From the NCBI GenBank assembly GCA_021325635.1, contig JAJPGV010000056.1, positions 1 to 64,000 of the forward strand: 64,000 nucleotides of DNA. Direction: 5' to 3'. This document shows positions 36,214 through 42,840 of the stretch, one piece after another. The notes beneath the pieces are model-generated. The model did not search any database. It saw nothing but the letters and a program-made list of their open reading frames with translations, and was not told the origin of the DNA. Every line of letters starts with the position of its first letter. The first letter of the stretch is position 1. The stretch comes from Chloroflexota bacterium. Its GTDB lineage: Bacteria > Chloroflexota > JAJPGV01. Made by a program: the position numbers and the translations under genes.

Positions 36214-38490
36214 GTGAGCGGGCCTGCTCGATCCACTGAGCGCTTGGTGGCGGCGAGCGATTCCGCTGGGCATCGAGCGACGTCTCTGGCCGCGCTCGCC
36301 GGCTTCGGGCTCCTGCTCGCCGGTGGATTCACAGGGCTGTGGGTTTCCGCGGATCGTTCCAGCAGCTCGCTCAAATTGGCGGCGTTCGGGCTGGCTGCCG
36401 CGCTCTACTTCGGTCTGGCGCGGCTGCACGGGCGCGCTCTCCGAGCCGCCTGCTGGCTGGCCGTAGGTTGTGCATTGCTGGCTGCGCTCCTTGGGGACGT
36501 GCTGGTGGACCGCAACGCCTGGAAGCTCAATACGCTCAATCGAACGGTGTATGGATGGTTCGCCGGCATCCCCCGCTTCACCGATCTGGCGCTCAACCAG
36601 AACGCGGTCGCGGCCGTGCTGATCCTCGCCGTGCCGCTGGCACTTGCGCTGGCGGCCAGTCCGTTGCGCTTTCGCTGGCGGCTGCTGGGGGGCGCAGCCA
36701 CGGCATTGCTGACCTTCGAGCTGCTGTTGACGGAGTCACGGGCGGCGCTGCTCAGCCTTGGCCTGGCGCTTTGCCTACTGGTGTTTGGCCTGCGCGGGCG
36801 CTGGCGTTGGTTGTGCCTGCTGGCGCCGGTGGTCGCCCTCCTGATCGTCAGCAGCGGCGCGCTGGGCGTATCCTTCCGCTTGGGCCTGCTGCCGACCGGC
36901 GAAAGCAGCGCAGAGCGCCTGGCCATCTGGCGCAGCACGCTCAGCATGATTCGCGACGCTCCCTTGACCGGGATTGGGTTAGGCCTGTTCCAGCAGGTCT
37001 ATCCGCTTTACATCGAGCCCGCCTACCACACCATCCATCCGCATGCCCACAACCTGCTCCTGCAGACGTACGTGGATGCCGGGCTCGCCGGCTTTGTCGG
37101 CATGGTGGTGCTGATAGCCGTGTCTGGCCGGCAGCTGCTGCGCGTCGTGAGAAGTGCCGAAGGGCCCGACCGCTGGCTGGCATTGGGCGCAGCCACGAGC
37201 AGCGTGGCGATGCTGATCCACGCGCAAGTGGACAGCTATTTCGCCGGTGATGCTCGGACCTACTATCTCATGTTCGTGCCGCTCGGACTGCTGGCCGCGG
37301 CCTGCCCCCGTAGCGCGCCGGCGCGCATCAGTTGGGGGTTCGAGCGGCACGCCTGGCGTTGGGCAGGCGCCGGGCTGGCCGCCGTGCCGCTGCTGTCGTT
37401 CGGCTGGATGGATCGCCTGCCGGGGCTGGTGTGGACGAATGCCGGGACCGTTCAGCGCATCAAGTCCGAGCTGGTCCGCAGTGGCGACGAGGCCAGGGCC
37501 GCCCGTTTGGATTTCGAGCGCGCCTCGGAGCTGGGCCGCGGAGGATGGGCAGCCGAGCGCGGACTCGGTCTGCTGGCGCTGGATGAAGGCGATTATGCGA
37601 TGGCCGCCAAGCATCTCGCGGCTGCCGCCGCCAGCTCCTCCGATCCGCGGCTGCTGTTCGATCTGGGCTTAGCTCGTTTGCGATCCGGCGATCGGGCCGG
37701 CGCCATCGACTCGTGGAGGCTTGCCGGGGCGGTGCCCCGATTGGTGCGGGATGCCGAGCGCGCGCAGGACGGTTCACAGCGGGAGGCGCAGCTTCGCCTC
37801 GCCCTGGACGTGTCGCCCCAGGACCCCGATGCCCTGGATGCGCTGTCGCAGTTCTATCTGGAGCAGGGACGCTGGCCGGACGCCGAGCCGCTGTTGGAGC
37901 GAGAGGCCCGCGGCGCCAGGCCGGACAAGCGAATGTTCGCCGACGTCCTGCTGGGCCTGGGCGCCTTTCGGCGGCGGTCCAACGTGGACGAGGCCAGGGA
38001 CCGGCTGCTCTCAGCAGCGGCGGACGATCCCGAGAGTGAGGCCCCGTACCGCGTGCTGGCCTGGGCACTGCTGGCGGATGGCCAGCTGGCCGAGGCTGAG
38101 AATTGGCAGGCTCGGGCCGACGGGGTGCTGGCTCGGACCCAGCAGCCGTCCGACCTGGCCGGTCAGGCATATGAGCTGCTGGGCATGCCCGAGGAGGCCG
38201 CCGCGGAGTATCAGCGCGTCGCCACTGGGCCGTATCCCGACCCCATCGGCCATTACCGGCTGGGCCGCTTGTATGAACGCCAGGGACAGCTGGATACCGC
38301 CATCGCCGAGCTGACGGCGGCCAGCCGGGCCATCCCTAACCAGGAGGACTTCCGTCAGTCGTTGGCCGAGGCTTACGACGCTCGGGGCGACGCATTGCTG
38401 GCGCGCCACGAATGGCAGGCGGTCCTGGATCTCGACCCTGGCAACCCCGCTGCCAGGATGGCCCTCGGAAAGGTGGTAGTCCAGCGGTAA
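36214..38490 (+). CDS. O-antigen ligase/polymerase-like membrane protein with TPR tail
   Basis: A 758-residue protein. The N-terminal half (to about residue 400) has ten or more membrane helices and the Wzy_C hallmark: ERLAIWRSTLSMIRDAPLTGIGLG, followed by HPHAHNLLLQTY. This family joins or polymerises lipid-linked glycans on the outer face of the membrane. The C-terminal half consists of TPR-like helical repeats (ALDALSQFYLEQGRWPDAEPLL, PIGHYRLGRLYERQGQLDTAI). The start GTG directly follows the amidohydrolase stop. In a monoderm cell the likely substrate is a wall or surface polysaccharide. Confidence 0.85.
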   Translation: MSGPARSTERLVAASDSAGHRATSLAALAGFGLLLAGGFTGLWVSADRSSSSLKLAAFGLAAALYFGLARLHGRALRAACWLAVGCALLAALLGDVLVDRNAWKLNTLNRTVYGWFAGIPRFTDLALNQNAVAAVLILAVPLALALAASPLRFRWRLLGGAATALLTFELLLTESRAALLSLGLALCLLVFGLRGRWRWLCLLAPVVALLIVSSGALGVSFRLGLLPTGESSAERLAIWRSTLSMIRDAPLTGIGLGLFQQVYPLYIEPAYHTIHPHAHNLLLQTYVDAGLAGFVGMVVLIAVSGRQLLRVVRSAEGPDRWLALGAATSSVAMLIHAQVDSYFAGDARTYYLMFVPLGLLAAACPRSAPARISWGFERHAWRWAGAGLAAVPLLSFGWMDRLPGLVWTNAGTVQRIKSELVRSGDEARAARLDFERASELGRGGWAAERGLGLLALDEGDYAMAAKHLAAAAASSSDPRLLFDLGLARLRSGDRAGAIDSWRLAGAVPRLVRDAERAQDGSQREAQLRLALDVSPQDPDALDALSQFYLEQGRWPDAEPLLEREARGARPDKRMFADVLLGLGAFRRRSNVDEARDRLLSAAADDPESEAPYRVLAWALLADGQLAEAENWQARADGVLARTQQPSDLAGQAYELLGMPEEAAAEYQRVATGPYPDPIGHYRLGRLYERQGQLDTAIAELTAASRAIPNQEDFRQSLAEAYDARGDALLARHEWQAVLDLDPGNPAARMALGKVVVQR

Positions 38491-38517: not shown

Positions 38518-39522
38518 CTACACCCCCAGCAGGCTGTCGCGCATGATGTCGAAGTTCTCCATCGCCCGGCCCGTGCCGATGGCAACGCAGTTGAGGGCGT
38601 GCTCCGCCACATGGCAGGGAACGCCGGTGACAGACGTAAGCAGCTTGTCGACGTTGCGCAGCAGCGAGCCACCTCCGGTCATGACCATGCCCTTGTCCAT
38701 GACGTCCGACGAAAGCTCGGGCGGGGTCTGCTCCAGCACGGTCTTCACTGCTTCCGTCACGGCTGCGACCGGATCGCTGATGGCGTCGACGATCTCGTTG
38801 GTTCGGACGGTGACTGTCCGTGGCAAGCCCAGCAGCTGATCGCGGCCGCGCACCTCCATTTCCAGCTCGTCCTCCAGCCGTGTGGCGCTGCCGATGTTGA
38901 TTTTGATCTCCTCGGCCGTTCGCTCTCCGATCATCAGGTTGTAGCGGCGCTTGATGTACGCGGCGATGACGTCGTCGAAGCGGTTGCCGCCGACGCGTAC
39001 TGAATGCGAGGTGACGATGCCGTTGAGCGAGATCACGGCCACCTCGGTCGTCCCGCCGCCGATGTCGATGATCAGGTTGCCGCTGGCCGCGGAGATGGGC
39101 ACGCTGGCCCCGAGCGCCGCCGCCAGCGGTTCCGGGATGAGGTAGGCCACACGCGCGCCCGCGGCCATGGCCGCGTCGTGAACGGCGCGACCCTCCACGT
39201 TGGTCACTCCCGAGGGGATGCAGATCATGACCTCCGGCTTGACCAGGCGGAAGCGCCCGCACACCTTGCCGATGAAATAGCGCAGCATAGCCTCGGTGAT
39301 GACGTAGTCGGCGATCACGCCGTCGCGCATCGGCCGGGTCACGGTGATGTTGCCCGGTGTACGGCCGAGCATCATCCTGGCTTCGTTGCCCACCGCGACG
39401 ATCCGGTTCTCGGAGTTGGAGATGGCTACTACCGAGGGCTCATTGAGGACGATGCCCTTGCCCTTTACGTAGACCAGGACGTTGGCCGTGCCGAGATCGA
39501 TGCCAATCTGCTTTTCGAACAT
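38518..39522 (-). CDS. mreB: Rod-shape determining protein MreB
   Basis: A 334-residue bacterial actin that directs lateral wall synthesis. Phosphate-1 loop [17 protein letters not shown], phosphate-2 loop [15 protein letters not shown] and adenosine motif [13 protein letters not shown] are all present. The length and motifs fit MreB/Mbl. It lies 12 bases downstream of murA; mreC and mreD are not in the window. Position at the end of the ATP synthase-murA unit links energy and envelope genes in one direction of transcription. Confidence 0.95.
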
Positions 39523-39534
39523 GCTTCCTTCGGA

Positions 39535-40794
39535 TTACTGGTCTGAGATGCTGGCGCCGAGCTGCGAGATCTTGCTCACGATGTCGGTGTAGCCGCGCTC
39601 GATGTGCTGGGTGTCAGTGATGACAGTCTGCCCTCCGCCTACCAGGGCAGCAATGATCAGCGCAGCGCCCGAGCGGATGTCCAGCGCCTGGACCTCCGCT
39701 CCATGAAGCCGTGAGGGGCCGTAAATGGTGGCGAACTGGCCCTCGACTTTCGAATGTGCCCCCATCTTGGACATCTCGTTCAGGTACAGCAGCCGGTCAT
39801 TGTAGAGGATCTCATGGATCAAGCTTTCGCCACAAGCCTGCGTGAGCAGCGCTCCGAACGGTGCCTGCAGGTCTGTAGGGAAGCCTGGATAGGGGAAGGT
39901 CGTAAGGACCGTTGGCTGGACGGGTCCCTTCGAGCGGATCAGCAGGCTGTCCCAGCGCTGGGTCACGTCCACGCCGACCTCCTGGAGCTTCTCGCACACC
40001 GCTTCCAAGTGATCGCAGAACACCCGCTCCAGGGTGACTTCTCCCCCGGTCGCTGCCGCCGCGATGGCCAGCGTCCCCGCCTCGATGCGATCCGGAATAA
40101 CCCGGTAGCGGCAGCCGTGCAGCTGCTTGACGCCTTCGATCTCCAGCTGGTTGGCGCCGACCCGCTGGATCTTGGCTCCCATGAAGTTCAGACAATCGAT
40201 CAGGTCGATGACTTCCGGCTCGGGCGCCGCGTTCTTGATGGTGGTGTGGCCCTCGGCCAGGCAGGCGGCCATGACCACGTTCTCAGTGCCCGTCACGCTG
40301 GGATAGTCGAGGAAGATCTTGGTTCCCCGGAGGTGGGCGGCCGTGCACGAATAGGTGCCCTCGGATTGGCTGATGGCCGCGCCCAGCGCCTGGAAGCCCT
40401 TGATGTGCATGTCGATGGGCCGGTAGCCCAGCACGTCGCCGCCCGGCGCCGGGGAATGGCCCTCACCGAATCTCGCCAGGAGGGGTCCCATGACCGTGAA
40501 GGACGCGCGCAGCTTGCGCACGTGCTCGTCGGGCGCGCGATAGTTGGTAACGCCGCTCGCTTCGATGGTAAGCCGCGGCGGAGTGGCCGAGCGATCCATC
40601 TCCACACGTGCTCCCAGGCCGCGCAGCACGTCCGACATCGTGTGCACGTCCTCGATGTCCGGCACGTTCTCGAGGACGATCTCCTCGCCGGTGAGCAGCG
40701 CCGCCGCCATGATGGGCAGCGCCGCGTTCTTCGAGCCGCTGATGGTGACGTCACCCCTGAGTCGGGTGCCGCCTTCAATGTGAATGGCGCTCAT
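39535..40794 (-). CDS. murA: UDP-N-acetylglucosamine 1-carboxyvinyltransferase (Asp-type MurA)
   Basis: A 419-residue EPSP-synthase-fold enzyme for the first committed step of peptidoglycan synthesis. SGSKNAALPIMAA contains the conserved Lys-Asn pair. In the active-site loop PGGDVLGYRPID, residue 120 is Asp (codon GAC at 40435-40437) where most bacteria have the PEP-binding Cys115. Cys-to-Asp enzymes, as in Mycobacterium and Chlamydia, are active and fosfomycin-resistant. The gap to atpC is 130 bases and contains CATAAT (minus strand, 40861-40866), a possible separate promoter. Confidence 0.95.
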   Translation of the reverse strand: MSAIHIEGGTRLRGDVTISGSKNAALPIMAAALLTGEEIVLENVPDIEDVHTMSDVLRGLGARVEMDRSATPPRLTIEASGVTNYRAPDEHVRKLRASFTVMGPLLARFGEGHSPAPGGDVLGYRPIDMHIKGFQALGAAISQSEGTYSCTAAHLRGTKIFLDYPSVTGTENVVMAACLAEGHTTIKNAAPEPEVIDLIDCLNFMGAKIQRVGANQLEIEGVKQLHGCRYRVIPDRIEAGTLAIAAAATGGEVTLERVFCDHLEAVCEKLQEVGVDVTQRWDSLLIRSKGPVQPTVLTTFPYPGFPTDLQAPFGALLTQACGESLIHEILYNDRLLYLNEMSKMGAHSKVEGQFATIYGPSRLHGAEVQALDIRSGAALIIAALVGGGQTVITDTQHIERGYTDIVSKISQLGASISDQ

Positions 40795-40924
40795 CGGCAG
40801 GAGTCAGCCCCGGAAGGGTGGGTGGGGGGCGAGTAGGCAGGCTTCAAGGCTTCGCCGACCATTATGACCGAGGCGGGCCACCCAACGACCACGTCTCCGT
40901 TTCGCCTGCCGCCTGCCGCAGTCG

Positions 40925-41356
40925 CTACGGGCTTGTTTCGGGGACGGGTCGCGTCCGTCGCCGGCGTTCGGCGACGCGCAGCCGAACGGTTGCGCGCTCG
41001 ATAGCGGCCTGCACGGCCGCCTGAGCCTGATGGTCCTTCAGCTCGGCCATGTGCCGTCGCGCGCGTTCCAGCGCTTCGCGCGCCCGGGTCACGTCGACTT
41101 CTTCGGCGCGTTCGGCGGCGTCAGCCAGGACGGTCACGTGGTCTGACTCGACCTGCAGCACCCCGCCCGAAACCGCCAGCGCCACCTCCTCGGGCCCTCT
41201 CTTGAGGCGCAGCTCGCCGGGTTTGAGGAGGGCAATCATGCGCGCATGATGCGGCAGGATGCCCACCGTCCCATCCACGCTGGGTGCGACCACCATGTCG
41301 GCAGTGTCGGACAGGACGCTGCGCTCCGCGGTGACGACGTCGACGAGGAGTGGCAC
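40925..41356 (-). CDS. atpC: ATP synthase F1 epsilon subunit
   Basis: A 143-residue subunit of the central stalk. The beta-sandwich domain is intact (SDTADMVVAPSVDGTVGILPHHARMI), with the conserved GVLQV strand. A C-terminal two-helix domain rich in Arg/Ala (EEVDVTRAREALERARRHMAEL) can inhibit ATP hydrolysis in related enzymes. It ends the synthase genes; murA follows after 130 bases. Confidence 0.94.
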   Translation of the reverse strand: MPLLVDVVTAERSVLSDTADMVVAPSVDGTVGILPHHARMIALLKPGELRLKRGPEEVALAVSGGVLQVESDHVTVLADAAERAEEVDVTRAREALERARRHMAELKDHQAQAAVQAAIERATVRLRVAERRRRTRPVPETSP

Positions 41357-41358
41357 GG

Positions 41359-42840
<1,482 letters not shown>

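Follow-up and report, generated by a model that had tools for sequence, protein, structure and literature searches.

The MurA encoded in the window, as the whole analysed stretch of 64,000 nucleotides of Chloroflexota DNA is called here, most probably (probability about 0.93) is the sole housekeeping MurA of its genome, with Asp120 in the role of Cys115 and with an activity that, by analogy with characterised enzymes, fosfomycin would leave unaffected. Three features define the locus:

39535..40794, minus strand: murA, UDP-N-acetylglucosamine 1-carboxyvinyltransferase, Asp-type, 419 aa (TIGR01072, NF006873, PDB homologues)
40435..40437, minus strand: codon GAC, Asp120, counterpart of E. coli Cys115 (translation and alignment to E. 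coli MurA)
40420..40422, minus strand: codon CGG, Arg125, conserved counterpart of the phosphonate-binding Arg120 of E. coli (alignment; role from PMC4790336)

The window ORF on the minus strand (40794..39535, 419 aa, start codon ATG, containing GHSPAPGGDVLGYRPIDMH) encodes a full-length MurA. The identity proposed in the preliminary description is confirmed by the murA equivalog model TIGR01072, with a score of 519.5 bits against a cut-off of 392.7 and a match covering profile positions 1-415 of 416. The protein also scores 529.4 bits with NF006873 and 312.4 bits with PF00275, the EPSP synthase superfamily, and its best solved homologues among the PDB chains are exclusively MurA. An Rfam scan across the window gave no match.

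The assignment of Asp120 to the Cys115 position, made earlier from the letters alone, is borne out by translation and by alignment. Positions 40435-40437 read GTC on the plus strand, hence GAC (Asp) on the coding strand, at codon 120 and within the motif PGGDVLGYRPIDMH. In a pairwise alignment with the MurA of E. coli K-12 (NC_000913.3; 42.7% identity over 419 columns), this Asp falls on Cys115, and the other catalytic and ligand residues compared are identical: Lys22, Asn23, Arg96, Arg125, Asp308, Asp372 and Arg400 correspond to Lys22, Asn23, Arg91, Arg120, Asp305, Asp369 and Arg397 of E. coli. The phosphonate of fosfomycin is held in the E. coli enzyme by Lys22, Arg120 and Arg397 (PMC4790336); the window MurA thus keeps the residues that hold the drug, and the one that the drug attacks differs. 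A frame or assembly oddity is not at the origin of Asp120, as the motif PGGDxxGxRP was found again in many relatives. Moreover, a single base error would not yield it, since the step from TGY to GAY requires two base changes.

In Cys-type MurA, fosfomycin alkylates Cys115 (PMC4790336). The E. coli C115D mutant is active and uninhibited by the drug, and insensitivity is likewise found in the natural Asp-type MurAs of M. tuberculosis, C. trachomatis and B. burgdorferi; in two of these three purified natural enzymes, the reverse change reportedly restores inhibition (PMC4790336). For E. faecium C119D, the IC50 of fosfomycin is >100 uM, compared to 0.18 uM for the wild type, with kcat kept and kcat/Km for UDP-GlcNAc down by about half (PMC5652432). 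The cost of C115D in E. coli is disputed between PMC4790336 and PMC5652432 (fully active vs. >10-fold less efficient). These two studies support the earlier statement that known Asp-type MurAs are active and fosfomycin-insensitive. By the same analogy, the window MurA, as the only, housekeeping enzyme of its kind, is inferred to move enolpyruvate from PEP to UDP-GlcNAc, with Asp120 presumably taking over the general acid-base and product-release work done by Cys115 in E. coli. Fosfomycin alkylates the thiol of Cys, and the carboxylate of Asp would not be alkylated in this way, so that an active and insensitive enzyme is to be expected; its insensitivity is very likely, given the characterised Asp-type enzymes. 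Fosfomycin resistance of the whole cell is a plausible prediction.

The surroundings of murA point to a housekeeping copy. Two neighbors are placed on the same strand:

38518..39522, minus strand: mreB, directly downstream of murA (TIGR00904, 475.7 bits)
40925..41356, minus strand: ORF read as atpC, the ATP synthase epsilon subunit, upstream of murA (position after atpD and sequence inspection)

The gene order atpD-atpC-murA-mreB occupies 38518-42810 of the window on a single strand. Many relatives have homologues of AtpC, AtpD and MreB around murA in this order, at Asp-type loci (e.g., L018, L039 and L041) as well as at Cys-type loci (e.g., L036, L037, L056 and L057), so that the arrangement seems to be of old standing in the phylum. 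Because atpC-murA-mreB is common to Asp and Cys relatives, the window murA is regarded as the housekeeping copy. An acquired resistance gene was considered and rejected, as murA sits in this shared order. Further along, at 36214-38490, lies an ORF of 758 aa in which a membrane part resembling O-antigen ligase/IctB precedes TPR-like repeats; all its matches are below the curated cut-offs.

How common the Asp state is was surveyed across the phylum. When 400 genomes were scanned with a strict motif, 56 gave a match, 55 of them reading GAY and one (G127) Cys. Among these 55, the G295 match (L022) is probably due to chance, since its context is atypical (PGGDARGCRPLDEH) and it did not come up as a MurA. 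The matched codons were then read by eye, one by one, in a looser scan and in another that covered 201 more complete genomes. With two mismatches allowed, the D and C patterns overlap, GAY being two mismatches away from TGY, so the counts come from the codons and not from the scan tallies: an Asp-type site is present in at least 120 of the 201 genomes and a Cys-type site in 45, with a few carrying both. Asp is thus the majority state in the phylum, commoner than Cys. The preliminary description, which had presented Asp as a departure from the Cys norm, holds insofar as Asp replaces Cys115 here; in this phylum, however, Asp is common and not the exception. This pattern found no site in several dozen genomes, including those of one family with small genomes (f8, about 1.4-2.1 Mb); in three f8 genomes examined, the MurA model gives one weak match only, far under the cut-off. 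Such a small-genome family apparently lacking MurA, together with the range of genome sizes, would be in keeping with Chloroflexota.

Both types of MurA occur together in G021 (L048, Asp; L062, Cys), G088 and G333. Sites of note in these two-MurA genomes are L062 (G021:C29:44612-45850), G333:C6:82996 and G088:C87:10765; L062 and the G333 site show an unusual VGGC motif, and L062 lies on a long branch (1.3). Among the Asp-type sequences, L035, L038 and L042 carry RRVEQH or RRFEQH after the site, compared to the usual RPxDxH. The literature searched yielded no publication on this residue for the phylum, and a scan of genome contigs returned two distant Bacillota loci only. As the relatives drawn for the comparison share with the window genome the phylum only, the lineage appears isolated among the genomes compared.

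The history of the site was followed on an unrooted maximum-likelihood tree of 101 unevenly sampled MurAs, for which the trait residue was masked. At least five Asp/Cys changes are needed (5-6 in bootstrap trees), against about 19.5 for shuffled labels. The window MurA stands on a long branch (0.71) within a supported set of 28 sequences (100/96), 14 Asp and 14 Cys; its closest relative by identity is Cys-type (L037, 54%) and, by tree path, Asp-type (L017). We lean towards a history in which this position of an essential MurA switched at least five times in the phylum, largely in the ancestral gene place, the window lineage being one Asp branch in a mixed clade. If so, natural variation within the phylum could be used to ask what purpose the cysteine of MurA serves.

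As to origin, Asp is probably a long-standing alternative at the active site that has been inherited without any relation to fosfomycin exposure, insensitivity being a by-product. Over many families of the phylum Asp is in the majority, its carriers cluster strongly in the MurA tree, and the identical atpC-murA-mreB order in carriers of both residues indicates that the state changed in place, without import of a separate resistance gene. The number of changes, though, would also fit occasional selection, and an unrooted tree cannot separate gain from loss. Such an origin is compatible with an insensitive housekeeping MurA, which is a statement about behavior.

A different question is whether the drug reaches its target. 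In the window's own genome, antiporters of the GlpT/UhpT type, for organophosphates, gave weak matches only, none above the family cut-off, and the entry of fosfomycin is uncertain for this reason. A cell that ignores fosfomycin through failure of uptake, whatever its MurA does, is a possibility that we rate below even odds: other entry routes may exist, the assembly is incomplete, and the insensitivity of the enzyme is not contradicted in any case. If the drug were unable to enter, resistance of the whole cell would simply be over-determined.

The genome was searched for a second, Cys-type MurA, the finding that would have spoken against the earlier prediction: the own assembly (4.64 Mb, 63 contigs, completeness 96.4%, contamination 3.95%) contains one MurA in total and no second. 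A second, weak family match was rejected as MurA: it is AroA (TIGR01356, 399.5 bits), adjoining prephenate dehydrogenase. At this completeness and contamination, a further MurA in missing sequence is still conceivable, and genomes with one Asp and one Cys enzyme exist in the phylum; that a missed Cys-type MurA is the working enzyme is nevertheless highly improbable, with a single MurA in a 96.4% complete genome and the Asp copy in the conserved atpC-murA-mreB place with its other catalytic residues kept.

A lone MurA would be odd in a cell that had lost the murein pathway, but such a loss was rejected as well. MurB is present, and one contig carries RsmH, a PBP of the FtsI/SpoVD type, MurF, MraY, MurD and a MurG-like protein (247.0 bits, slightly below the cut-off of 250.25); with additional matches of the Mur-ligase type elsewhere in the genome, these indicate that the pathway is in use. 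The division and cell-wall cluster on this contig (L121, G000:C38:1-13082) consists of rsmH, the PBP gene, murF, mraY, murD, an ORF of 358 aa and the murG-like gene. The 358-aa ORF, without an NCBIfam match at 1e-20, sits at the usual place of ftsW.

The window MurA is an ordinary Asp-type MurA, and its practical weight is small, since the enzyme type and its behavior were known before. A poorly sampled lineage nonetheless joins the bacteria with a predicted fosfomycin-insensitive target, and in this phylum it would be misleading to annotate Cys as what bacteria normally have and Asp as a mutation to resistance.

The MurAs of M. tuberculosis, Chlamydia and Borrelia resemble the window's in having a natural, not acquired, Asp at the Cys115 position of an otherwise normal enzyme; they belong to other phyla and have been assayed, whereas the window MurA is known from its sequence. 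E. coli C115D and E. faecium C119D have the same substitution at the same position, and insensitivity was measured there, but these are single mutants, engineered or clinical, for which a certain drop in catalytic efficiency is reported, while the Asp of the window enzyme stands in a natural background. Within the phylum, Asp-type MurAs such as L016 and L017 share about 52-53% identity and adjoining atpC and mreB homologues with the window's; they come from separate families and carry the motif PGGDVIGQRPIDVH instead of the window's own. The L037 MurA, the closest by identity, also adjoins atpC and mreB homologues, but has Cys at this position (PGGCAIGVRP).
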